Source of the DNA: Desertimonas flava
Lineage (GTDB): Bacteria; Actinomycetota; Acidimicrobiia; Acidimicrobiales; Ilumatobacteraceae
DNA length: 64,000 bases
Assembly: GCF_003426815.1 (NCBI RefSeq)
Contig: NZ_QKYK01000009.1
Location: 1 to 64,000, forward strand
Direction of reading: 5' to 3'
The notes beneath the pieces were generated by a model, which had not been told where the DNA came from, did not search any database, and saw only the letters and a list, made by a program, of their open reading frames with translations. The position numbers were made by a program, and so were the translations under genes. This document shows positions 147-42,556 of the stretch, piece by piece; position 1 is the stretch's first letter; each line of letters begins with the position of its first letter.

Positions 147-1313
147 TCAGGATGAGCCGGCGACGACAACCGTGTCGATCAGGGGCTCGCCGGGCCGGTA
201 GACGAGATGGATCGGCGCTGGGGCGTCGAGCACCACGACGTCGGCGCGACTCCCGGGCGCGAGCCGGCCGACGTCGGTTCTCCGCAGCGCCGCCGCCCCA
301 CCGGCGGTGGCCGCCCAGATCGCCTCGTCGATCGTCATGCGGAGGTCGCGGACGGCGAGAGCGATCACGAACGACATCGACGTCGTGAAGCTGCTGCCCG
401 GGTTGCAGTTGCTCGCCAGGGCGACGGTGACGCCGGCGTCGATCGCCCGGCGGGCGTCGGGATAAGGCTGCCGGGTGGAGAAGTCGGTCGCCGGCAGGAA
501 CGTGGCGACCGTCGTCCCGGACGCCAGGGCGGCGATGTCGTCGTCGGTCAGGTAGGTGCAGTGATCGGCCGAGGCACAGCCCATCTCCACCGCCAGCTGC
601 ACACCAGGCCCGGGTCCGAGCTGGTTGGCGTGGAGGCGCCCGCCGAGACCGGCTGCCGCCCCGGCCTCGAGCACGGCCCGGCACTGCTCGGCGTCGAACG
701 CACCCACCTCGCAGAACGCGTCGATCCAGCGGGCGTACGGTGCGCAACGGCGCAGCATCTCCCCGCACACCAGGTGCACGTAGTCGTCGGTCCGCCCGGC
801 GTACGACACCGGCACGACGTGGGCACCGAGGTACGTCCGCTCCTCGGTGACGTCGCCGGCGATCTGAAGGAGCCGTTCCTCGCCTGCCGCGTCCAGGGCG
901 TAGCCCGACTTGATCTCCACCGTGGTCGTGCCGCCCCGTCGGGCGCGCTGCCACAGCTCGCGTGTTCGGCATGTCAGGTCGTCCGTGGTGGCCGCTGTGG
1001 TGGCCGCCACCGTGGTGGCGATCCCGCCCGCGGCGTACGGAGCTCCGGCCATCCTCGCGGCGAACTCGGCCGAGCGGTCGCCCCCGAACACGAGGTGGGT
1101 GTGGCTGTCGACGAACCCCGGGATCACGGCCCGGCCACCGACATCCCGACGCTCGTCCGCCTCCGGTGCCGGGCCGGTGCCGACGTCGATGACGAGGCCG
1201 GACACGTCGTCGACGACGATCCACGCGTCCTCGAGGATGCCCGACCGGCCCCGATCGTGGGCCGGGTCGTTCGTCGTGAGCGACGAGATCCCGGTGATGA
1301 CGGTGGACGTCAC
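147..1313 (-). CDS. hutI: Imidazolonepropionase
   Basis: The 388-residue product would hydrolyse imidazolone-5-propionate to N-formimino-L-glutamate, the third step of histidine degradation, in the cytoplasm. It is an amidohydrolase-fold enzyme: the metal-binding HTH motif lies near residues 71-73 after the usual beta-strand PGFVDS, followed by the family stretch [14 protein letters not shown], then [16 protein letters not shown] and the late ASNCNPGSS segment. Length fits the family (about 390-410). The GTG start at 1313 was chosen because it overlaps the hutF stop by four bases (GTGA) and begins just before the first conserved strand; a longer upstream extension would run into hutF coding sequence. 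It is the last gene of the hut operon and abuts the putative insertion sequence. Confidence 0.93.
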
Positions 1314-2677
1314 GCCACGTCCCAGACGGCTGTGATCGACGATGCCAGCGCGCCCGCCACGTCGATCGCCACATGCCGGCCATCGGCGACCACCACCCGA
1401 CCGTCGACCACGACGTGGCGCACGTCGGCCGGGGCCGCCGAGAAGATCACGGCCGCGGCGACGTCGTCGGCCCCGGCGAGTCGCACGTTGTCGGTGTCCA
1501 CGGTGACGAAGTCGGCGACCGCTCCCACGACCAGCTCGCCGCCCGCCCACCCGAGGCTTCGGTAGCCGTGTCGCGTGGCCGCGTCGAGTAGCTGGTCGGG
1601 ACGGTGTGAGCCCCGGTGCAACGCGGCCAGCCGTTCGTCGAGCTCGATCGCCCTGGCCTCTTCGAACGGGTCGATCACGGCGTGGCTGTCCGATCCGATG
1701 CAGAGCCGCGCCCCGGCGTCACGCAGCGCGGTGCTCGGCCCGATCCCGTCGGCGAGGTCACGCTCGGTGGTCGGGCAGAAGCAGCACCCCGCCGTCGCCC
1801 GGCCGAGCCGGTCGATGTCATCGGCAGTCAGGTGCGTGGCGTGCACCGCGGTGAAGCGGTCGTGCACGGCGCCGCAGCGGTCGAGCAGTTCGACGGGGGT
1901 GCATCCGTGGGCGGCGACGCAGGCCTCGTTCTCCGCCGGCTGCTCGGACACATGGGCGTGCAGCACGGCGCCGTGCTCGCCGGCCCACGCGGCGACGGCG
2001 GCGATCGATCCCGGATCGACGGCCCGCACCGAATGCACCGCCGCGCCGACCGTCACCGTCGGCCCGGCCAGCGGGGCCAACCCACCCACCCGCTCGGCCC
2101 AGGCGTTCACCGAGCCGTCGGAGAAGCGCTGCTGCACCGGCGCGAGCGGTCGGCCGATGCCGCCGTGCAGGTAGCAGGCGTCGAGCAGCGTGAGGCGCAG
2201 CCCGGCACGGGTTGCCGCGGCCACGAGCCGCGATCCCATCTCGTTGGGGTCCGTGTACCGCGTCCCGCCCGGTCCGTGGTGGAGGTAGTGGAACTCGCCG
2301 ACGGCGGTGTAGCCGGCCAGTGCCATCTCGGCGAACACCGCTGTCGCCAGCGCCTCGTACCCGTCGGGATCGAGCACGGCGGCGGCCTCGTACATCCGGT
2401 CACGCCACGTCCAGAACGTTCCGCCGTCGCCGTGCGTCCGGCCGCGCAGGGCGCGATGGAAGACGTGGCTGTGGGCGTTGGCGATGCCGGGCAGGGTCAG
2501 CCCGGCGAGCCGGGTCGCGCCGGGCGGTACCGAACCGACGCCGGTCTCGACGGCGGTGAGCGCGCCGCCCTCGACCGACAACCGCACCCCGGCCATGACG
2601 CCTCGATCGGCCCCGAGCCACGCCTGCTCGCACCAGTAGGTCCCGAGATAGTGCCTGGCACTATCTCGGGAGATCAC
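1310..2677 (-). CDS. hutF: Formimidoylglutamate deiminase
   Basis: This enzyme converts N-formimino-L-glutamate to N-formyl-L-glutamate and ammonia, the branch of histidine degradation that then needs a deformylase. The product has 455 residues, the usual family size. It is an amidohydrolase with an NAHSH metal motif near residues 67-71, HAHVSEQP in the middle, HATHLT, and [15 protein letters not shown] near the C-terminus. The family N-terminus (YWCEQAWL here) lies upstream of the only nearby ATG, so the GTG at 2677 is the best start; it overlaps the stop of the deformylase gene as GTGA. As a result the first dozen codons run through the perfect palindrome at 2641-2671, an odd N-terminus described separately. 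hutI follows with another GTGA overlap. Confidence 0.9.
2641..2671. repeat. Perfect 15-bp inverted repeat with GTGCCTGGCAC core inside the hutF start region
   Basis: The left arm TCCCGAGATAGTGCC and the right arm GGCACTATCTCGGGA are exact reverse complements separated by a single T. The element begins 3 bases downstream of the deformylase stop and is translated as codons 3 to 12 of hutF if the GTG start is right. It could form a strong hairpin in the operon mRNA. A second element at 57737-57771 shares its central 11 bases but has different, self-complementary arms. Confidence 0.85.
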
Positions 2678-3249
2678 GACCCGACCCGTTCGACGAACTC
2701 GGTGATGCGGGCGACGAAGGCGTCGCGCCCGAACCGTTCGAACGACTCCCACGTCGTGAACGTGGCCGGGTCGGTGACGCGGTCGAGGAAGAGCGTGCCG
2801 TCGAGGTGGTCGCACTCGTGCTGGAACGTGCCGGCGGTGAGCCCGCGCTTGATCTCGTCGTGGGCGACGCCGTGGCGATCGTGGTACCGCACCCGAACGT
2901 TCACGTGCCGGTCGACCTCGCCCCGCAGGTTCGGCACCGACAAGCATCCCTCGTTGATCGCCACCGTCTCGTCGTCGAGCGGCTCGAGGACGGGATTGAT
3001 CACGACGGTGAGCGGGATCGGCGGCTTGTACGGATAGCGGGGGTTGCGATCCACCTCGATGGTGGCCACACGCAACGGGACGGCGATCTGGTTGGCCGCC
3101 AGGCCGGCGCCGTTGGCGTGCCGCATCGTGTCGATCAGGTCGTCGATCAGCCGCTGCACCTCGGAGCCGTTGATGTCGGCGGGATCGATCTCGTCGGCCC
3201 GCTGCCGCAACACGGGGTGCCCGACGGTGACGATCTCGCGGACCGTCAC
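2674..3249 (-). CDS. def: Peptide deformylase homologue embedded in the hut operon
   Basis: The 191-residue product has all three deformylase motifs: GAGLAANQ (residues 47-54), EGCLS (100-104) with the metal Cys, and HECDH (144-148) with two metal His and the catalytic Glu. Family members remove the formyl group from nascent protein N-termini. The start is GTG at 3249, overlapping the upstream oxygenase stop by four bases; the downstream hutF start overlaps its stop the same way. Motif 1 has Asn where Pro is usual (AANQ rather than AAPQ). The operon position and the absence of hutG suggest, as inference only, that it may deformylate N-formylglutamate. It may equally be an ordinary housekeeping deformylase carried in the operon. 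Confidence 0.9.
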   Translation of the reverse strand: MTVREIVTVGHPVLRQRADEIDPADINGSEVQRLIDDLIDTMRHANGAGLAANQIAVPLRVATIEVDRNPRYPYKPPIPLTVVINPVLEPLDDETVAINEGCLSVPNLRGEVDRHVNVRVRYHDRHGVAHDEIKRGLTAGTFQHECDHLDGTLFLDRVTDPATFTTWESFERFGRDAFVARITEFVERVGS

Positions 3250-4091
3250 GACGACCACAGCACCGGGAACAGCCGGTGGTCCATCGGGGCGCCCGGCGGC
3301 AACTCGTCGTCGAGGCCCGGGAACGGCGGCGAAGTCGTCCAGGGGCGTGGTGCGTGCACCATGTCGTCGCCGAGGAACCGCACCGACAGCACCCGGCGAC
3401 GCGTCGCCGATCCGCCCGACGAGTGCAGCGTCAGCATGTGGAAGAACACCGCGTCGCCCGGTTCCAGTTCCCACGCCAGGATCGGCCCGAGCGGCGAAGG
3501 CGAGGGAGGAGCTTGCTCCGACTGAGCCGTTGTCGCGGCCTGCGTGGCCGGGGAACGCAGCGACTCGTCGATCGCCGGCAGCTCGGCGAGCTCACCCTCG
3601 GCGAACCACTTCGCCTCGCCGTCGAGGAACGACCGGGGCATGTACCAGGGACCGACGTGGGACCCGGCGACGAACCGCAAGGTCGCGGCGAGCGGCACGG
3701 GATCGACCGGGAACCACATCGACGCGCTCTGCCGTCCGTCGACGTTGTAGTACGGCTGGTCCTGGTGCCACGGCGTCGGCTGGCGGGTCCCCGGCTCCTT
3801 CACCAGCACGTGGTCGTGGTAGAGCCGGACGGTCGACGCCCCCATCAGCTCGGCGGCGATCGCGGCCGCCGGCGACTCGCGGATGAACCGCTCCATCGGG
3901 GCGATGCGCTGCCACGAACAGAAGTCCTCGACGAACGCCCCGTCGTCGGCCGCGCTGGCCCGCTTGGCATGCGGCGAGAGATCGGCCAGGTTGGCCTCGA
4001 TCGCCTCGGCGGCGAGCGCCACGAAGCCGGGATCGAACGCGCCCCGCACGCACACCGCCCCGTCGCGCTGGAAGTCACCCTCGATCCTCAT
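3246..4091 (-). CDS. Phytanoyl-CoA dioxygenase (PhyH) family Fe(II)/2-oxoglutarate oxygenase
   Basis: The 281-residue protein has the PhyH double-stranded beta-helix signature: WHQD with H109 and D111 as iron ligands, LRFVAGSH in the middle, a distal His in FFHMLTLH (218 or 223), and an Arg-rich strand near 231-238 for 2-oxoglutarate. Its substrate is unknown; relatives hydroxylate small molecules as well as acyl-CoAs. It lies between hutU and the deformylase gene with 4-base overlaps on both sides, so it is almost certainly co-transcribed with histidine degradation, and a histidine-related or N-methylated imidazole substrate is a reasonable guess. A low-complexity Ala/Gln/Ser/Pro stretch at residues 183-200 corresponds to a repeat-like DNA insertion near 3485-3545. 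Confidence 0.85.
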
Positions 4092-9245: not shown

Positions 9246-11303
9246 ATGAGCGCCCTCGCCCTCGCCGACGAGCACCTCGACCGTGTGATCGCCCAACTCG
9301 CTGGCGACGGAGCCGTCCCCCGCGACGACCAGCGGGCCGCGGTGCAGGCGCTGGTCGCCGAGCGCCGCCGGGTCCTCGTGGTGCAGGCCACCGGTTGGGG
9401 CAAGTCGGCCGTCTACTGGGCGGCCACGTCGGCGTTGCGGGCCGACGGGGCCGGTTGCACGCTCGTGGTGTCGCCGCTCTTGGCCCTGATGCGCGACCAG
9501 ATCGCCGCCGCCGCCCGGGCCGGGCTTCGGGCCGCGACGGTCAACTCCACCAATGTCGACGAGTGGGGGGAGGTCCTCGACGCCGTTCGTGGCAACGCCG
9601 TCGACGTGCTGTTGATCTCGCCGGAACGACTCGGCAACCCGCGGTTCGCCGCCCAGCTCCCGGCCCTGCTGTCCTCGTGCGGGTTGCTCGTGATCGACGA
9701 GGCCCACTGCGTGTCGGACTGGGGATTCGACTTCCGCCCCGACTACCAGCGCCTCACCCGGACGCTGATGGCGCTGGCGCCCGACACACCGGTCCTCGCC
9801 ACCACGGCGACGGCGAATCAGCGGGTCACCGCCGACGTCGCCGCCCAACTCGGCGACGGCACGGTCACGCTGCGCGGCTCGCTCGCCCGCTCGTCGCTGC
9901 GCCTCGCCGTCGTCCCCCGCCTCGATGCGGTCCAGCGCTATGCCTGGGTGGCCGACGCCCTCGGGGAACTGCCGGGCTCGGGCATCATCTACGTGCTCAC
10001 GGTGGCCGAGACGGATCGGGTCGCCGGCATGCTCGCCGACGCCGGCTTCGACGTCGCTGCCTACTCGTCGGTGGTGGGCACCGACGAGCGCGAGGAGCTG
10101 GAGGAGCGCCTGAAGCGCAACCAACTCAAGGCCCTCGTCGCCACCTCAGCACTCGGCATGGGCTACGACAAGCCCGACCTCGCCTTCTGCATCCACCTCG
10201 GATCGCCGGCGTCGCCGGTGGCCTACTACCAGCAGGTCGGCCGCGCCGGCCGCGCCCTCGACGACGCGATCGCCGTCCTCCTGCCATCGGCCGGCGACGA
10301 GCGCATCTGGGAGTACTTCGCCACCGCCGGAATGCCCGAGCCCGATGCCGTGACGGCGATCCTCGCCGCGTTGGACGGCGGGGCAGCCACGCTGCCGGCG
10401 ATCGAGGCCGAGACCAAACTCCGACGCGGCCGGCTCGAGGCCCTGCTCAAGATCCTCGCCGTCGACGGGGTCGTCGAGCGGGAGACCGGCGGTTGGGTCC
10501 GTACCGGGGCAGAGTGGGTCTACGACGAGGCGAAGTGGTCGGCCCTGCGCCGGGTGCGGGCGGCCGAGGCCGACCTGATGCGGCGCTACGCATCGGGCCA
10601 GGGCTGCCTCATGCAGTTCCTACAGCAAGCGCTCGACGACCCCGACCCGCAGCCGTGTGGCCGCTGCTCGGTGTGCACCGGCGAGCTGCCCCACCCCGGC
10701 GCGACGCCGACGGGCACGGCCGCGACGAACGCCATGCAGTATCTACGCGGCGTCGACGTGGTGATCGAACCGCGCAAGCTGTGGCCGGCGGGCGTTCCCG
10801 GCCGCAAGGGCAAGATCGCCGGCAGTGGGGTCGGGCGGGCGCTCGCGTTCGCCGACGACGCCGCCTGGGGTGCGTCGCTCCCCCACCCGAACGCCCCCGA
10901 TGCCCCGGTCAGCGACGAACTCGCCGCAGGGGTGGTCACCGTGCTGTCGCGCTGGTCGAAGCACTGGAAGCGTCCGGTGTGTGTCGTTCCGATGCCGTCG
11001 CGGCGTCACCCCCAACTCGTCCGGTCGTTGGCCGACCACATCGCCACCGTGGGCAAGCTGCCCCTGATCGACGCTCTCGAGGCGACCGGGCCACCGCCGC
11101 CGACCGACGTCGCGTCGGCGGCCAGGGCCGCCGCGCTCGTCGGATCGCTCCGCCTGGCCGACGGCGTCCGCCTGCCGGCGGGCCCGGCGCTGCTCGTGGA
11201 TGACACGTACCGCTCCGGCTGGACGGCGACGGTTGCGTCGGCGTTGCTGCACGACGCCGGCGCCTCGGCCGCCTACCCCCTCGTCCTCCACCAGCTGCCC
11301 TGA
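9246..11303 (+). CDS. recQ: RecQ-type ATP-dependent DNA helicase with C-terminal phosphoribosyltransferase-like domain
   Basis: The 685-residue protein would unwind DNA 3' to 5' during recombination and repair. Helicase motifs are visible: Walker A ATGWGKS (48-54), SPLLALMRDQ (76-85), DEAHC (151-155), TATAN, and motif VI QQVGRAGR. A Cys cluster (CGRCSVC near 470) marks the RecQ zinc subdomain. There is no HRDC domain; instead the last 200 or so residues end in a phosphoribosyltransferase-like region with LLVDDTYRSGWT, the PRPP-binding loop pattern seen in ComF-like proteins. Such helicases occur in other actinobacteria; the role of the PRT-like region is unknown to me. The start ATG lies immediately after the 22-bp repeats. 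Confidence 0.92.
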   Translation: MSALALADEHLDRVIAQLAGDGAVPRDDQRAAVQALVAERRRVLVVQATGWGKSAVYWAATSALRADGAGCTLVVSPLLALMRDQIAAAARAGLRAATVNSTNVDEWGEVLDAVRGNAVDVLLISPERLGNPRFAAQLPALLSSCGLLVIDEAHCVSDWGFDFRPDYQRLTRTLMALAPDTPVLATTATANQRVTADVAAQLGDGTVTLRGSLARSSLRLAVVPRLDAVQRYAWVADALGELPGSGIIYVLTVAETDRVAGMLADAGFDVAAYSSVVGTDEREELEERLKRNQLKALVATSALGMGYDKPDLAFCIHLGSPASPVAYYQQVGRAGRALDDAIAVLLPSAGDERIWEYFATAGMPEPDAVTAILAALDGGAATLPAIEAETKLRRGRLEALLKILAVDGVVERETGGWVRTGAEWVYDEAKWSALRRVRAAEADLMRRYASGQGCLMQFLQQALDDPDPQPCGRCSVCTGELPHPGATPTGTAATNAMQYLRGVDVVIEPRKLWPAGVPGRKGKIAGSGVGRALAFADDAAWGASLPHPNAPDAPVSDELAAGVVTVLSRWSKHWKRPVCVVPMPSRRHPQLVRSLADHIATVGKLPLIDALEATGPPPPTDVASAARAAALVGSLRLADGVRLPAGPALLVDDTYRSGWTATVASALLHDAGASAAYPLVLHQLP

Positions 11304-11351
11304 GGACGGATCCTCAGCGCTCGTGAACGCGTGCACGAGCTGTCAGGGGGA

Positions 11352-36629: not shown

Positions 36630-36787
36630 GCAACGAATCTACGAGTGCCGCCCGTCACACTCTCAGTCGAGCGACCCGGGAGTGGCGAGCATCCCCGAGC
36701 GTTGCGCGATCGCACGACTCGTGACGACACCGTGAACAGCCACCGCATCCCATGGACAGTCGCGCGCGCCGTTGCTTCACTCGGCGC

Positions 36788-37639
36788 ATGCAAGCTGTCG
36801 ACCGCCGCGTGCTCAGCTTCATCGCCGAGCATCTGGCCGGCTACGGCTACGCCCCGACGCTCCGTGAGATCGCCACCGCGTGCGGTCTGCGGGGTGTGTC
36901 GATGGCCCGGAGCAGCATCGCCCGACTCGTCGCCGCCGGCGCGCTCGACCAGCAACGTGGCCAAGCCCGGGGGTTGACGTTGCCTGTGCCCGCCAGCGAC
37001 GACCAGACGGCGTTCATCCGCCGCCGTGACGTCGAGCGCGAGAGCCTCGCCGTGCTCGAGCTGTTCGCCCTGATGGAGCAGGGGTACTACCCGTATCTGT
37101 GCCGCGCCGCCGCGCTCGCGCCGGATCTGGCCACCGCCCAGGACTGGCTCGAGCTCGTGCACGCCAGGATCCGCCAGCTGTCGGCCCTGCAGGACGCGCT
37201 GCTCCGGGCACGAGGCGACTTCGACCGCGAGATCACGACCCGGGCGAGCCGCCACGCGGCTGCCGCGTGGTCGGCGCTGCGTCGCCACTGCGAGGCGGTC
37301 AGCTCCTGGGAAGGCTGGCTCGCCATCGAGCAGTACGAGACCGACGTGATCCTCGCTCGCCGCTTCCCGACGTGCGACGTCGCCGCCGCGGGCATCGCCG
37401 CAGTGGTCCTCGAGGGCAACCTCGACACCGCCCGCCTCGGCCGGGCGGTGGTCGAACGGGCGCTCGCCCGGGGCAGTGTCCGCGACCCCCAACTCGTCGT
37501 ACGCGTCGCCCGCGAGCGAGCGCGGATCGAGGCGGTCTACGCCGACATCGGCCCGCTTCTCGACGACATCTGGCCCGCCACCCCTCCCCCGTCCACCGCC
37601 GGCCTCACGGCGATCCCACCACGATCTGGAGCAGCATGA
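36788..37639 (+). CDS. LexA-type winged-HTH regulator with unknown helical C-terminal domain
   Basis: The 283-residue protein opens with a LexA DNA-binding domain (residues 1-65: RRVLSFIAEHLAGYGYAPTL, REIATACGL, then the recognition segment and QARGLTLP). It lacks the S24 peptidase and the Ala-Gly cleavage site of LexA. Residues 75-275 are an Ala/Leu/Arg-rich, apparently all-helical region I do not recognise, resembling ligand-binding domains of TetR-like sensors only in composition. ATG 36788 is preferred because it starts the HTH directly; ATG 36752 is possible. Its stop overlaps the binding-protein start (ATGA), so it is probably the local regulator of the transport and oxygenase operon. 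Confidence 0.75.
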   Translation: MQAVDRRVLSFIAEHLAGYGYAPTLREIATACGLRGVSMARSSIARLVAAGALDQQRGQARGLTLPVPASDDQTAFIRRRDVERESLAVLELFALMEQGYYPYLCRAAALAPDLATAQDWLELVHARIRQLSALQDALLRARGDFDREITTRASRHAAAAWSALRRHCEAVSSWEGWLAIEQYETDVILARRFPTCDVAAAGIAAVVLEGNLDTARLGRAVVERALARGSVRDPQLVVRVARERARIEAVYADIGPLLDDIWPATPPPSTAGLTAIPPRSGAA

Positions 37640-38709
37640 CGTCTCCCCTGCCCTCGCCCACCCTCTCCCGCCGCCGGCTCCTCCTCACCGGCCTGGTCGC
37701 AGGTGGCGCACTCGGCGCCGCGCGGTGGAGTCCTCTCCACGCCGCGTCGGCCGGCGGTCGCCGGCCGACCAGCGCCGAGTTCGGCGACCTCAGCATCGCG
37801 CTCAGCTGGATCAAGGACGTCACGTTCGCCGGGGCGTTCATCGCCGATGCGGATGGCCTGTTCGCCGCGGCCGGTTTCGGCACCGTCGACTTCATCGCTG
37901 GTGGCGGCAACTCGCTGCCGCCGACCGCGCAGCTGCTGAACGGCGACGTGCTGATCGCCTACAGCGGGCCGGAGGCTGCCGCCGCCGCGGTGCAGCAAGG
38001 CGGCGACGTCAAGATCGTCGGGACGCTCTTCCAGAAGAACCCGTTGAGCGTCATCTCACCCGCCGACGCGCCGATCGAGACTCCCGCCGACCTCGCCGGG
38101 CGACGCATCGGTGTGTACGCCGGCGGCGAGGCCGCCCTGGAGTACTTCCTGACGCTCAACGGCGTCGACCCCGGCTCGGTCACGCAGGTGCCCACCAACT
38201 ACGACCCGCTCGTGCTGACCACGGGTGAGGTGGATGGCTACCTCGGCTACTCGTTCGACGAACCCAACACGCTGCTGGCCCGCGGGTTCGAGACGGCCGT
38301 CATGCTCTATGCCGACTTCGGCTACAACTCGCTCTCGCAGGCGTACGCCGTCCGGGACGAAGACCTCGATGCCAACCGGGAGGCGCTGATCGCCTACTTC
38401 GCCGCCGAGATCGCCGGTTGGAAGGCCAACGTCGCCGATCCGGCGAAGGGCACCGAACTGGTCGTCTCCACCTACGGCATCGACGCCGGCCTCGACCCGG
38501 AACACCAGGCGTTGCAGAACGAGTCACAGATTCCCCTGATCGCCACGGAGGAGACGGAGACGATCGGTCTGCTGACGATCTCGCCGGACCTCGCCGCGTC
38601 GACGGTCGACTCGCTGGCTGCGGGCGGCATCGACGTGACAGCCGACGACATCTTCGACCTCACGTTGCTCGCCGACGTGTACGAGGCACATCCCGATCTG
38701 CTCGGGTGA
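37636..38709 (+). CDS. Tat-exported ABC transporter substrate-binding protein, NMT1/THI5-like
   Basis: The 357-residue protein has a twin-arginine signal peptide (SRRRLLLTGLVAGGALG, residues 11-27) and a type II periplasmic-binding fold of the NMT1/THI5/SsuA group: ALSWIKDVTFAGAFIADADG at the start of the mature domain, VQQGGDVKIVGTLFQKNP, and the hinge segment DLAGRRIGVYAGGEAALEYF. Relatives bind thiamine-pyrimidine precursors, riboflavin, sulfonates or nitrate. The genes around it suggest a nitrogen heterocycle, which is inference. Its ATG overlaps the regulator stop and its stop overlaps the permease GTG. Confidence 0.9.
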   Translation: MTSPLPSPTLSRRRLLLTGLVAGGALGAARWSPLHAASAGGRRPTSAEFGDLSIALSWIKDVTFAGAFIADADGLFAAAGFGTVDFIAGGGNSLPPTAQLLNGDVLIAYSGPEAAAAAVQQGGDVKIVGTLFQKNPLSVISPADAPIETPADLAGRRIGVYAGGEAALEYFLTLNGVDPGSVTQVPTNYDPLVLTTGEVDGYLGYSFDEPNTLLARGFETAVMLYADFGYNSLSQAYAVRDEDLDANREALIAYFAAEIAGWKANVADPAKGTELVVSTYGIDAGLDPEHQALQNESQIPLIATEETETIGLLTISPDLAASTVDSLAAGGIDVTADDIFDLTLLADVYEAHPDLLG

Positions 38710-40355
38710 CCGCGCTCCTCGACCACCGGGTGCTGCCGTCAGCTGACGCGCCGCCGTCCGGGCCCGCCTACCCGGCGAGGCCCGAGGGCGGCCGCCTCGC
38801 GGCGCGGGCGCGACGCGACCTCCCCACCGTCGCTGTCCTCACCGGCCTGCTCACCGTGTGGGAGGTTGCCGTCCGGATCGTCGATGTTGGCAACGATGCG
38901 CTGCCGGCTCCGACGGCGATCGTCGCCGGACTGTGGCGGGACCGGGAGATCTACCCCCGGGCGATCCGGGCGACGCTGAGCGAGGCCGTCGCCGGTTTCG
39001 CTGTGGCGTCGGTCGCAGCGATGTTCATCGGCGCGACGTGTGTCCTCGTGCCGGCGGCCGAGCGTCTGATCATGCGGGTGTCGCTGGCGATCTTCTGCCT
39101 GCCCCTGATCGCCATCGCCCCGGTCCTCGATCTCGTGCTCTCCGACAACGGCCCGCGGGTCGCGCTCGCCTCCCTCAGCGCGTTCTTCCCGATCGTCATC
39201 GCCACCGTGGCCGGATTGCAGTCGGTTCCCCGTCTCGAGCTGGAACTGATCCACGCCCTCGGCGGTGGTGCCGTCGCCGAGGTTCGCTTCGTCCGGCGGC
39301 GGGCTGCGGCTCGCGGTCTCCTCGCAGGGATGAGGATCGGTGTGACCGCCGCCGTGCTCGGCGCGCTGATCGGCGAGCTCATCGGGGCGGAACGCGGCCT
39401 CGGCGTGTTGATGCTGGTGTCGCAAAAGGGGTTGATGGTCGACCGCACTTGGGGCGTGGCCGTCGTCGCCGCGGCGATCGCCGGGACACTGTATGGCCTG
39501 GTCGCCGCCGTCGAACGGCTCGTCGGGCCGACCTTCCCGAGCGACCGCGCCGGCGCCGGGCGGACCGCTCCACGGTCCCGGCGGCGCCGAGCGCTAGAAG
39601 CGGTGGGAGTCGTCACCGCGTCGTTCGCCGTACTCATCGGCGGATGGTGGCTGTTCGTGCGGGCGCTCGGGGGCAGCCCGATCCTGATCAAGACGCCGGC
39701 GGACGTCGTGCGCAGCGTGACGACCGGTCCCGGGGCGACCATCCGGCGCGAGACGCTGCTCGACGCGACCTGGGTCACCGCGCAGCACGCTCTCGTGGGC
39801 ATGGCCGCCGGCTTGACGATCGCTCTGGCGCTCGCCCTGACCTTCGTCGTGACCCCCGTGGTCCGCCGACCACTGCTGGCCATCGCCGTCGTCTTCCAGA
39901 CCGTCCCGGCCGTGGCGTTCCTGCCGTTGTTCGTGCTGCTGTTCGGCCGCCAGCTCTGGTGCGTCGCCGTGTTCGGCGTGGTGTGCGTCCTGTTCCCGTC
40001 GCTCGTCACCATGCTCGCCGGGCTCGAGAACGTGTCGAAGCCCGCCACCGACCTGATGCACGCGCTCGGGGGCGGGCGGGCGGCGACGATGCGATTCGTG
40101 CGACTCCCCGCCGCACTGCCGTCGCTCTTCGCGGCGACCCGGATTGCCGTCCCCAACGCCGTCACCGGTGCCCTCGTCGCCGAGTGGCTCGCCACCGGCA
40201 CCGGACTCGGGCGCGTGATGACCACCGCCGGGGCCCGCCTCGACTACGACTCGATCTGGGCGGCCGCCGTCGCCGTCACGGCGTTGTCGGCGATCGGCTA
40301 TTCGGCCGTGCACTCGATCGAACGATTGACCCTCACCCGCTTCGCAGGAGGCTGA
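38706..40355 (+). CDS. ABC transporter permease with two fused permease domains
   Basis: The 549-residue membrane protein contains two complete SsuC/ThiX-like permease units in tandem, at about 35-285 and 305-545. Each has five to six predicted membrane helices and its own EAA cytoplasmic loop (LIHALGGGAVAEVRFVRRRA and LMHALGGGRAATMRFVRLPA), the site where the ATPase docks. Most transporters of this class use two identical single-domain subunits; the fusion makes the pore asymmetric. The GTG at 38706 overlaps the binding-protein stop. No ATPase gene is in this operon, so an ATPase from elsewhere must serve it. Confidence 0.9.
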   Translation: MTALLDHRVLPSADAPPSGPAYPARPEGGRLAARARRDLPTVAVLTGLLTVWEVAVRIVDVGNDALPAPTAIVAGLWRDREIYPRAIRATLSEAVAGFAVASVAAMFIGATCVLVPAAERLIMRVSLAIFCLPLIAIAPVLDLVLSDNGPRVALASLSAFFPIVIATVAGLQSVPRLELELIHALGGGAVAEVRFVRRRAAARGLLAGMRIGVTAAVLGALIGELIGAERGLGVLMLVSQKGLMVDRTWGVAVVAAAIAGTLYGLVAAVERLVGPTFPSDRAGAGRTAPRSRRRRALEAVGVVTASFAVLIGGWWLFVRALGGSPILIKTPADVVRSVTTGPGATIRRETLLDATWVTAQHALVGMAAGLTIALALALTFVVTPVVRRPLLAIAVVFQTVPAVAFLPLFVLLFGRQLWCVAVFGVVCVLFPSLVTMLAGLENVSKPATDLMHALGGGRAATMRFVRLPAALPSLFAATRIAVPNAVTGALVAEWLATGTGLGRVMTTAGARLDYDSIWAAAVAVTALSAIGYSAVHSIERLTLTRFAGG

Positions 40356-40359
40356 CCGC

Positions 40360-41292
40360 GTGAACACCATCCCCGTCGTCGATCTCTCCGCTGTCCGCTC
40401 GGGCAACGGCGTGTACGACACCGCCGCTGCGCTCGACAAGGCGCTGCGGACCGTCGGCTTCGTCCAAATCACCGGGCACGGCATCGACCCCGCCGTCTTC
40501 ACCGCCGCGTATGACGCGATGACCGCGCTGATGGGCGAGTCCGACGACGTCCGTGCCGCGCTCCGCGACCCCAGCGGTCACCCGTTCTACGGACTCGTCC
40601 CACGCGAGCTCGACGGCCGGGTCGTCTACCACCAGTTCGAACTCAACGCCCATCCGAGCCCCGATGCTGCCCGTGCCGCGGGCATCCCCGAGGAGTATCT
40701 CTCGCACTTCCGGACCAACCTCTTCCCCGACCATCTCGAGGGCTTCCGGGCGGCGATGCAGGGCTGCTTCGACGCCATGCGCAACTTCGCCCCCCGCCTG
40801 CTCGCCCTCCTGGCCGTCGCCGTCGGCATGCCGCCGACGTTCTTCGAGAAGTACATGGAACGCGAGAGCACGTCGTTCGGCGTGGGCGACTACCCGCACC
40901 GGGAGTGGATCCCCGCCGATACCGAGATCCTCCCATGGCACACCGATCGTGAGACGCTCGTCAACATGCTGCACCAGCGGGGCACCTACGAGGGCCTGGA
41001 GATCCGAACGCTCGCCGGCGATGTGGTCCGGCTGCCGCTCGTCGAGGACGCCCTCGCCGTGAACGTCGGTGATCTGTTCGAGCGGTGGACCGGCGGCCGG
41101 TGGCGAGGCACGCCCCACCACGTGGTCAGCGGCGAGCGGGGCGAGTGGCGTCAGTCCATCGTGACATTCTGTGCCCCCGACGTCACTCGTGTCATCCAGC
41201 CGCTCGATCCGGCCGGCGGACGCATCGATCCGCTCGCCGAGCCGTTCAACGTGTTCGAGCTCGCCCTCGACCTGCCCCGCCCGGTCGCGTGA
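40360..41292 (+). CDS. Isopenicillin-N-synthase-like Fe(II)/2-oxoglutarate oxygenase
   Basis: The 310-residue enzyme has the N-terminal DIOX_N region (IPVVDLS, then VGFVQITGHGID, residues 4-43) and the catalytic jelly roll with WHTD (iron ligands H194 and D196), a distal His in GTPHHVV (253 or 254), and the RQS motif (R264, S266) that binds 2-oxoglutarate. The family includes hydroxylases, desaturases and thymine-7-hydroxylase. The GTG start is four bases after the permease stop, and the stop overlaps the next oxygenase gene as GTGA. The substrate is presumably the imported compound or its first product. Confidence 0.9.
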   Translation: MNTIPVVDLSAVRSGNGVYDTAAALDKALRTVGFVQITGHGIDPAVFTAAYDAMTALMGESDDVRAALRDPSGHPFYGLVPRELDGRVVYHQFELNAHPSPDAARAAGIPEEYLSHFRTNLFPDHLEGFRAAMQGCFDAMRNFAPRLLALLAVAVGMPPTFFEKYMERESTSFGVGDYPHREWIPADTEILPWHTDRETLVNMLHQRGTYEGLEIRTLAGDVVRLPLVEDALAVNVGDLFERWTGGRWRGTPHHVVSGERGEWRQSIVTFCAPDVTRVIQPLDPAGGRIDPLAEPFNVFELALDLPRPVA

Positions 41293-42209
41293 CCTCGGCC
41301 GGCAGCAGGCGGCTGGGGCAACGGTCCGCCCGTCGTGGCGAGACGTTCACGAATGTCCACCGCGGTCTGGAACGGTGCTGGCATCCCGTCGCCCTTTCGG
41401 ACGTGGTGGGGTCCGAACCGGTCGAGGTCGAGCTGCTCGGCCGGCAGTGGCGTATCGCCCGGTCGGCCGCCGGAACCGTCACGGCCGATCCCGAGCCGGC
41501 CGGGCTCCGCGATGAGCTCGGGCTGGTGTGGCTGGCGCCGCAGTCGCCGCCGGAGGCCCTCGATGAACTCGTCGCCTGTCCGTCCTACGTGGACTCGCGG
41601 TTCGCCCGGGTGTGGCTCGAGCCCAGTCGGACGTCGGCCGCGGCGGCCCTGCTCGCCGACAACTTCCTCGACATGGCCCACTTCCCGTTCGTCCACGCCG
41701 GCACGTTCGGCTCGGCCGACGACGTCCTCGTGCCCCGGTACGAGGTCGAGCGACACGGCGTCGAGATCGGGTACTCGTACGTTCACGGCTACCTCAACGA
41801 TGAAGACCCGGGCGTGGCGGCGGGGTTGCGTCCGCGGCGTCAGACGCGCCGCGTGACCGCGCTGTTTCGGCTGCCGTTCCAGATGACGCTGACCCTCGAG
41901 CACATCGAGTCGGGCGGCACGACGGTGATCTTGTTCACCCTGCAACCCGAGTCGGCGACCTCGACCGTGGCCTACACCTGCGTGCTGCGCGACCACATCG
42001 GCGGTGGGCCGGTCGACGTGGCGGCGACGGCGGCGTTCGAGCAGGCCGTCTTGGACGAGGACCTCGCGCTGCAGGCGGACATCGACCTCGACGGCCTGCC
42101 GCTCGACCTGCGCGACGAGGTCCACGTCCGGGCCGACGCCGCCGGAATCGAGCTGCGCCGTTGCCTCGCCTCGCTCGTGGCCCTCACAGCGACGGCCGTG
42201 GTGCCGTGA
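41289..42209 (+). CDS. Rieske-type oxygenase catalytic subunit lacking the [2Fe-2S] ligands
   Basis: The 306-residue protein aligns in outline with vanillate-demethylase-like terminal oxygenases: RCWHPVALSDV near residue 30, VELLGRQWRIAR, then LGLVWLAP, and the mononuclear-iron helix LLADNFLDMAHFPFVH with N125, D128, H131 and H136. The section that should hold the CxH and CxxH cluster ligands, normally about 40 residues between the RIAR and LGLVWLAP strands, is missing; only a short loop connects them. The next gene encodes exactly such a Rieske module, so the two chains probably form one enzyme. The GTG at 41289 overlaps the previous stop. Related enzymes N- or O-demethylate or hydroxylate small molecules. 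Confidence 0.85.
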   Translation: MTSAGSRRLGQRSARRGETFTNVHRGLERCWHPVALSDVVGSEPVEVELLGRQWRIARSAAGTVTADPEPAGLRDELGLVWLAPQSPPEALDELVACPSYVDSRFARVWLEPSRTSAAAALLADNFLDMAHFPFVHAGTFGSADDVLVPRYEVERHGVEIGYSYVHGYLNDEDPGVAAGLRPRRQTRRVTALFRLPFQMTLTLEHIESGGTTVILFTLQPESATSTVAYTCVLRDHIGGGPVDVAATAAFEQAVLDEDLALQADIDLDGLPLDLRDEVHVRADAAGIELRRCLASLVALTATAVVP

Positions 42210-42556
42210 CGAGCGTCGCCGTCACCGGTTGGCGTCGCCTCGGGCCGGCCGGACTCGACCGCTCGCGCCCGCACCGGACGGTGGTGGACGGCGCGGCCTA
42301 CGCGATCGTCCATCTCGACGGCCGGTGGCGGGTGTTCTCCGACGACTGTCCCCACCGCATGGCGCGGCTCAGCACGGGCCGGATCGTCGAGGACCGCTTG
42401 GAGTGCCCCTATCACGGCTGGCGTTTCGACGGATCGGGACGCTGCACATTGGTCCCGTCGCTCGGCCCGAACGTCGCCATCCCGACGAGGGCAGCCACCT
42501 CGCAGGCCGGCGTCGCCGTCGAGCGCGACGGCTCGCTGTGGGCCGAGTTCGGCTGA
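42206..42556 (+). CDS. Rieske [2Fe-2S] ferredoxin, probable partner of the upstream oxygenase
   Basis: The 116-residue protein is a stand-alone Rieske domain with both ligand pairs, C48-x-H50 (DCPHRMARLSTG) and C67-x2-H70 (CPYHGWRFDG), and no membrane anchor. The surrounding pattern is that of the N-terminal domain of Rieske oxygenases rather than of small electron-transfer ferredoxins. The GTG at 42206 overlaps the stop of the cluster-less catalytic chain, which favours one-to-one production and complex formation. It is the last gene of the operon; no reductase is encoded here. Confidence 0.9.
   Translation: MTSVAVTGWRRLGPAGLDRSRPHRTVVDGAAYAIVHLDGRWRVFSDDCPHRMARLSTGRIVEDRLECPYHGWRFDGSGRCTLVPSLGPNVAIPTRAATSQAGVAVERDGSLWAEFG

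Follow-up and report, generated by a model that had tools for sequence, protein, structure and literature searches.

A split Rieske oxygenase in a compact importer–oxygenase operon of Desertimonas flava that may act on a purine-type base

What could a bacterium import and oxidize with an ABC transporter that has no ATPase gene beside it and a Rieske oxygenase that is divided between two polypeptides? The question is raised by six plus-strand genes of Desertimonas flava (genome of 6.22 Mb in 73 contigs), which lie in the 64-kb stretch of DNA analysed here (bases 1–64000 of contig C73, referred to below as the window). The genes occupy positions 36788–37639, 37636–38709, 38706–40355, 40360–41292, 41289–42209 and 42206–42556, and are joined by four 4-base overlaps and one 4-base gap (−4, −4, +4, −4 and −4). 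All six end in TGA, and their GC content at third codon positions (GC3) is 0.87–0.90. The order of the Pfam matches is LexA helix-turn-helix (HTH), NMT1, double BPD_transp_1, DIOX_N with 2OG-FeII_Oxy, VanA_C and Rieske. This is in agreement with the original prediction, a reading of the sequence without database searches, in both the tightly joined layout and the family assigned to each protein. We consider it reasonably probable that the operon imports a purine-type base of the hypoxanthine/xanthine class and oxidizes it with two non-haem iron enzymes. The operon is a compact derived form of widespread, mostly uncharacterized importer–oxygenase loci that are linked to purine genes. As a kind, the gene set is already known, although not in its enzymology, and the novelty lies in the split Rieske enzyme.

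The catalytic chain of this enzyme (41289–42209, plus strand; VanA_C) has kept its iron site and lost its [2Fe-2S] part. Residues D128, H131, H136 and D258 are conserved without exception when the chain is aligned with 11 relatives, so the mononuclear iron site and the bridging Asp are present. The C-x-H…C-x2-H motif, which provides the cluster ligands in Rieske proteins as HTD/H provides the metal ligands in the isopenicillin N synthase (IPNS)-like family, is absent from the catalytic chain and is found in the next gene. Pairwise alignments place the excision at about residues 58–73 (41460–41507, plus strand). The chain lacks 53 residues relative to both the Pseudofrankia oxygenase L211 (gaps of 38, 5 and 10) and the Frankia oxygenase L154 (gaps of 18, 27 and 8), and all three gaps fall within the Rieske domain, at residues 58–72, with the outer strands retained on both sides. 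The following gene (42206–42556, plus strand) encodes a free-standing Rieske [2Fe-2S] domain of 116 aa, for which Rieske is the sole Pfam match and in which the cluster ligand motif is C48-x-H50…C67-x2-H70. It can be aligned without gaps over 105 residues, at 41–42% identity, to the N-terminal domain of two full-length Frankiaceae oxygenases, outer strands included. Across the two chains, the iron-site and cluster motifs are complete. Because the outer strands are present in both proteins, the pair cannot be explained by simple gene fission; duplication or recruitment of a Rieske domain, followed by excision, could account for it. The original prediction had recognized the split but overlooked the excision of the cluster part and the missing ATPase and reductase.

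The catalytic chain is 45–50% identical to the aligned Frankiaceae Rieske oxygenases. It groups with 13 of them, all located beside an NMT1 transporter, with Shimodaira–Hasegawa-like approximate likelihood ratio support of 96 and 91.9 in two trees. The cluster motif is in-chain in all 13 of these sisters and in nearly all other collected Rieske relatives, the exceptions being three NdmC-like chains (L081, L114 and L262), a chain truncated at the end of its contig (L067) and the Aquihabitans chain L193. The last was considered as a second split enzyme and rejected, as its halves are overlapping frames of seemingly one gene, a frameshift in the record being the probable cause. In L111, a Rieske-like stretch (9782–11338) was by eye unlike the small Rieske protein of the window. 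The iron-site pattern that was used gave no match on eight Streptomyces Rieske chains. Among 221 genomes of the family, the nearest other relative of the catalytic chain is 45% identical, and at 1e-30 the chain has matches in 9 of 396 genomes of the phylum, its own included. For the small Rieske protein, the nearest of the collected Rieske domains include one from a relative in the same family (L262, 51% identity), with identities of 38–54% for the others among the top 25, Frankiaceae included, and the best PDB match is the methylxanthine demethylase NdmA (8.4e-15).

The nearest published parallel is the N7-demethylase of Pseudomonas putida CBB5, NdmC/NdmD/NdmE, in which the Rieske domain is fused to a reductase and the glutathione S-transferase (GST)-like NdmE is needed (as described in a portion of PMC4408171). 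Like NdmC, the window chain is a catalytic subunit without a Rieske cluster domain, with the cluster on another chain. Unlike in NdmD, however, the Rieske domain is a free protein with no reductase fused to it, and among the six operon proteins, to which the search was confined, there is no match to the GST-like NdmE. The catalytic chain is only 22–23% identical to two proteins of NdmC architecture (NdmC itself being outside the comparison), whereas identity to five full-length Frankiaceae oxygenases is 48–49%. The NdmC/NdmD architecture itself occurs in genomes of the class (L081, 12020–14667; L114, 3–2803; L262, 5098–7863), with a catalytic-only chain overlapping a Rieske–reductase fusion, and the NdmC-like chain of L081 adjoins two IPNS-like genes. 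In the trees, the NdmC-like chains stand apart from the window chain, which forms a long branch, but a topology that forces the four Rieske-less chains into one clade is not rejected (approximately unbiased test, p 0.184). Given this p value and the long branch, an independent origin of the split is favoured, short of being shown. Our full proposal, to which we give slightly less than an even chance, is that a split Rieske oxygenase arose a second time, independently, by duplication or recruitment of the cluster domain and gutting of the in-chain copy, and that the free Rieske protein feeds a purine-hydroxylating subunit in trans, with a reductase shared from elsewhere. No pairing of a free-standing Rieske protein with a gutted catalytic subunit turned up in a full-text literature search, and NdmC goes unmentioned in the accessible part of PMC12445004.

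The best of five structural models of the catalytic chain (from 12 sequences) has a mean predicted local distance difference test (pLDDT) score of 71.5 and a predicted template modelling score of 0.72, with pLDDT values of 86–92 at residues 31–80 and below 50 in the iron-site region (residues 127–145); the other four are poor (mean pLDDT 47–50). Its best fold matches are SxtT (Z 23.6), dicamba monooxygenase (Z 23.6) and NdmA (Z 23.1 over 255 residues), with root mean square deviations of 2.7–2.9 over 251–258 aligned residues. Since these three matches are tied, the fold does not choose the substrate.

The substrate was approached through the neighbours of homologous genes. Counting the genome of D. 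flava, relatives of the catalytic chain are present in 37 of 296 genomes of the class Acidimicrobiia (at 1e-20) and relatives of the IPNS-like enzyme in 44 (at 1e-15). Stretches of at most 20 kb, shorter at contig ends, were fetched around chosen matches, higher-scoring ones first. Nine of them, from eight other genomes, contain an NMT1 relative; seven of these genomes have a clear Rieske oxygenase (that of G027 is weak, 2e-5) and six an IPNS-like enzyme. All three genes share one locus in five genomes (G020, G131, G190, G084 and G111, as read by eye from the map), and a short contig of G203 carries the permease with an IPNS-like enzyme. Co-occurrence of the oxygenases with the transporter in homologous loci, the test set beforehand for the original prediction, was thus found in five class genomes. 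NCBIfam models applied to ten neighbouring proteins recognized two adenosine deaminases (TIGR01430) and, in G190, one 8-oxoguanine deaminase at scores over the respective cut-offs, while the molybdenum enzymes near these loci resemble xanthine dehydrogenases (XDH) at scores below the cut-offs (at best 820.7 versus 830.45 bits, for the selenium-dependent type). At least one of six purine markers (threshold 1e-30) was detected in 8 of the 9 loci with NMT1 versus 3 of 44 control loci without it, which were fetched alike and span at least 10 kb each; this comparison is partly circular, as three of the same genomes had supplied five of the six marker queries. With the query-source genomes removed, the counts are 4 of 5 (L063, L067, L075 and L076, but not L098) versus 3 of 41 (Fisher p 0.001). 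Wider stretches from G110, G084 and G111 (L135, L137 and L138) combine the transporter with 8-oxoguanine deaminase and XDH-type genes.

Beyond the class, a profile of nine binding proteins, searched against GTDB contigs, yielded at least 549 confirmed relatives; the best 80 of these, to which all the following counts refer (at 1e-6 unless stated), are all from Actinomycetota as far as their record titles are readable, and four (L183, L206, L219 and L190) are contigs also counted among the class or family genomes. An ATPase was matched in 80 of 80 loci and a permease in 79, usually twice. Rieske oxygenases were matched in 27, the XDH-fusion query in 26, the XDH FAD-subunit query in 18, adenosine deaminase in 15 and 8-oxoguanine deaminase in 13. 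The idea of import followed by oxidation, also part of the original prediction, finds support in this linkage and in the five class loci. The window shares with the NMT1–ABC loci of Frankia, Streptomyces, Nocardia and other genera, some of which are purine loci, a binding protein that is 37–44% identical over the best segment, as well as ABC permeases, and Rieske or molybdenum-enzyme genes are linked in part of the Actinomycetota loci. Unlike the window, these loci have an ATPase, and their Rieske enzymes, L193 excepted, carry the cluster motif. Pfam scans of chosen neighbours in a set of 11 loci beyond the class identified allantoicase, OHCU decarboxylase, an IPNS-like enzyme and an XDH-type gene in Actinomycetospora (L175), PucR and adenosine deaminase in Nonomuraea (L196) and urease genes in Frankia (L154).

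In Streptomyces antibioticus (L143, 6203–14168), consecutive genes encode a TauD oxygenase, a Rieske oxygenase, a Fer2/NAD-binding reductase, the NMT1 transporter and a protein with the cytidine deaminase fold, and from its gene content this run has the look of an operon for oxidizing purines without molybdenum. A Rieske gene precedes NMT1 in seven more Streptomyces loci. HpxE is the reductase of the HpxD/HpxE pair, and the S. antibioticus run resembles that pair in having an oxygenase and a reductase, here in a row with an NMT1 transporter. In Klebsiella, HpxD/HpxE oxidizes hypoxanthine/xanthine (mentioned in a section of PMC7373994); by description, the window enzyme is likened to HpxD as a putative Rieske-type oxygenase of purine oxidation, but its operon has no reductase gene.

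A gene set of this kind has been reported before. According to sections of PMC7373994, genes resembling pcbC, NMT1 and tauA lie behind xanthine riboswitches in Proteobacteria, as do hcaE-type dioxygenases and amidohydrolases similar to guanine deaminase, in some cases in series, and the precise functions of the dioxygenases are not established. The operon is like these 'NMT1 motif' operons in its NMT1/TauA transporter, IPNS-like (pcbC) enzyme and hcaE-type dioxygenase, and unlike them in the absence of an Rfam match, in its phylum and in having a protein regulator instead. The label 'undescribed' in the original prediction is therefore too strong for the gene kinds and still apt for the enzyme functions. 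The full-text literature search turned up no paper on actinobacterial NMT1–oxygenase loci, and neither Rieske nor 2-oxoglutarate enzymes are described as acting on purines in the accessible part of PMC11698098. Purine markers in the class loci, the Actinomycetota neighbours, the xanthine-riboswitch operons, the NdmA match and the C67 gene set described below together support a purine-type substrate.

The methylated nitrogen heterocycle named in the original prediction is possible but not best supported. An N-methylated purine, similar to methylxanthine, or another N-methyl heterocycle would be demethylated by the Rieske pair, and the 2-oxoglutarate enzyme would remove a second methyl group or hydroxylate. 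Sequence matches to NdmA and NdmB, the NdmA fold match and the split architecture common to NdmC fit such a substrate, but the fold match is tied with two others, and the homologue neighbours read so far, which are deaminases, XDH-type enzymes, allantoicase and urease, indicate catabolism of unmethylated purines. We regard this alternative as unlikely, though the best of the competing ones.

The import genes bear on the purine-uptake proposal as follows. The binding protein (37636–38709, plus strand) is of the NMT1/THI5-like type (PF09084, 101.4 bits against a cut-off of 20.5, E 8.7e-29) and is predicted to be exported by a twin-arginine translocation (Tat)-type signal, its Tat-like SRRRLLL motif starting at residue 11; a lipobox-like ACG, seen by eye in six of eight aligned relatives, is not found in it. 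Besides this protein, the genome has three clear NMT1 relatives, on contigs C67 (43% identity), C35 (37%) and C17 (34%), and three weak ones. The fused double permease (38706–40355, plus strand; BPD_transp_1 in two stretches) has relatives that are likewise fused on C67 and C35 and in G027. Unlike an ABC importer with its ATPase, the operon has no ATPase gene of its own, and the ATPase of related clusters gave no match within the window at E ≤ 1e-6. The gene order on C67 is IPNS–NMT1–fused permease–ATPase–IPNS and that on C35 ATPase–fused permease–NMT1–amidohydrolase; C17 carries TauD relatives, an ATPase, permeases and NMT1. As the fused permeases of the window, C67 and C35 can be aligned end to end, the ATPase of C67 or C35 could serve the window permease.

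In the mechanism that we propose, the binding protein would catch a purine-type base, and the fused permease would import it with an ATPase borrowed from a paralogous cluster, C67 and C35 being the candidates. The Rieske enzyme would then hydroxylate the ring, with electrons passing from a reductase encoded elsewhere through the small Rieske protein, docked at the site of the lost in-chain domain, to the mononuclear iron in the catalytic chain. Either the product or a related base would be oxidized a second time by the IPNS-like Fe(II)/2-oxoglutarate oxygenase (40360–41292, plus strand; DIOX_N and 2OG-FeII_Oxy), in which the HTD, H and RxS motifs are intact (HTD from residue 194, PHHVV from 252 and RQS from 264). 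The LexA-HTH protein would be the local regulator, and the operon would work beside the molybdenum hydroxylases of the genome. Since the genome has nine MoCoBD_1 (molybdenum-hydroxylase-type) matches, we cannot describe the operon as replacing xanthine dehydrogenase.

Several observations weigh against this proposal. None of the six genes is purine-specific, and Pfam gave no match to uricase in the genome. Allantoicase likewise gave no match there, but as the control was silent too, this carries no weight. Of the best 80 loci, 53 lack a Rieske match, just 7 contain an IPNS-like gene, and 45, some of them short contigs, are negative for all six purine markers (at 1e-30). The binding protein sits on a long branch (2.06), as does the IPNS-like enzyme (2.34), which has no close orthologue and is placed outside the main clade of NMT1-linked IPNS proteins, so that a change of ligands is possible. 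Two queries against the genome revealed no dedicated Rieske reductase, and that of the Streptomyces cluster gave no match in the window at E ≤ 1e-6. A weak match lies on C38 (3.9e-9, 27%), and the strong one, on C12, was rejected as the partner because it is a P450–reductase fusion. This C12 gene (L264, 7951–10497) joins a P450 to an FNR/ferredoxin-type reductase and lies beside genes for ABC transporters and a weak match to PucR. Lack of ATPase and reductase matches in the window, the long branches of three proteins (these two and the catalytic chain) and the absence of a near copy of the catalytic chain in the family genomes would also fit a decaying, non-working operon that has lost both genes and whose Rieske enzyme is broken. 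Decay, which we hold to be improbable, is disfavoured by six closely joined open frames of high GC3, by the retention of iron-site motifs in the two oxygenases and of cluster ligands in the small Rieske protein, and by an in-frame excision that leaves the rest of the N-terminal domain ordered in the best model. Least probable is uptake and oxidation of a pyrimidine or thiamine precursor, which would suit the NMT1/THI5 family and one of two PDB matches of the binding-protein profile, the FAMP-binding protein 3ix1 (the single sequence gave none at 1e-3), but not the purine genes linked in relatives or the distinction of riboswitch-linked NMT1 genes from those of thiamin metabolism (stated in a section of PMC7373994).

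The first gene (36788–37639, plus strand) encodes the putative regulator, in which Pfam and NCBIfam scans delimit a LexA-type HTH (residues 6–62; PF01726, E 1.2e-9) and a C-terminal part (about residues 75–283). It lacks the LexA peptidase and scores 34.5 bits with the whole-protein lexA model (cut-off 110.95). No relatives other than itself were found among the 296 class genomes at 1e-10; the C-terminal part has none, the 396 phylum genomes giving six HTH-length matches at 1e-6, and a single-sequence fold (pLDDT 44.6) was too poor for structure search. A cytochrome P450 gene (35376–36629) is divergent from the operon and shares its upstream region, where an imperfect 18-bp palindrome (36701–36718; 11-nt arms, 82% complementary) is, by its sequence, a possible operator. 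LexA-box matches (TCGAAC-N4-GTTCGA, at most three mismatches) number 87 in the 64 kb versus 38.7 expected from shuffles, of which 0 of 100 reach 87; since they are scattered across the window with none in the P450–regulator gap, nothing is concluded about LexA-box control, which was set aside. At Rfam gathering scores, no riboswitch was detected in the window, L103, L128 or L129, the sole match being a tRNA; the NMT1 motif (xanthine riboswitch) is presumably contained in Rfam 15. Elsewhere in the window, hutF (1313–3430), a formimidoylglutamate deiminase gene of histidine degradation that scores over the cut-off, also has a weaker match to 8-oxoguanine deaminase.

If the purine-uptake proposal is true, purine catabolism becomes linked to a large family of NMT1-type ABC importers in actinobacteria, and the link gives a testable ligand for proteins that are best modelled as generic binders of sulfonates or thiamine precursors. 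The split Rieske pair, if it functions as proposed, would let the electron-relay domain be titrated, swapped or omitted in a natural system, and would allow a direct test of inter-chain electron transfer in Rieske oxygenases.

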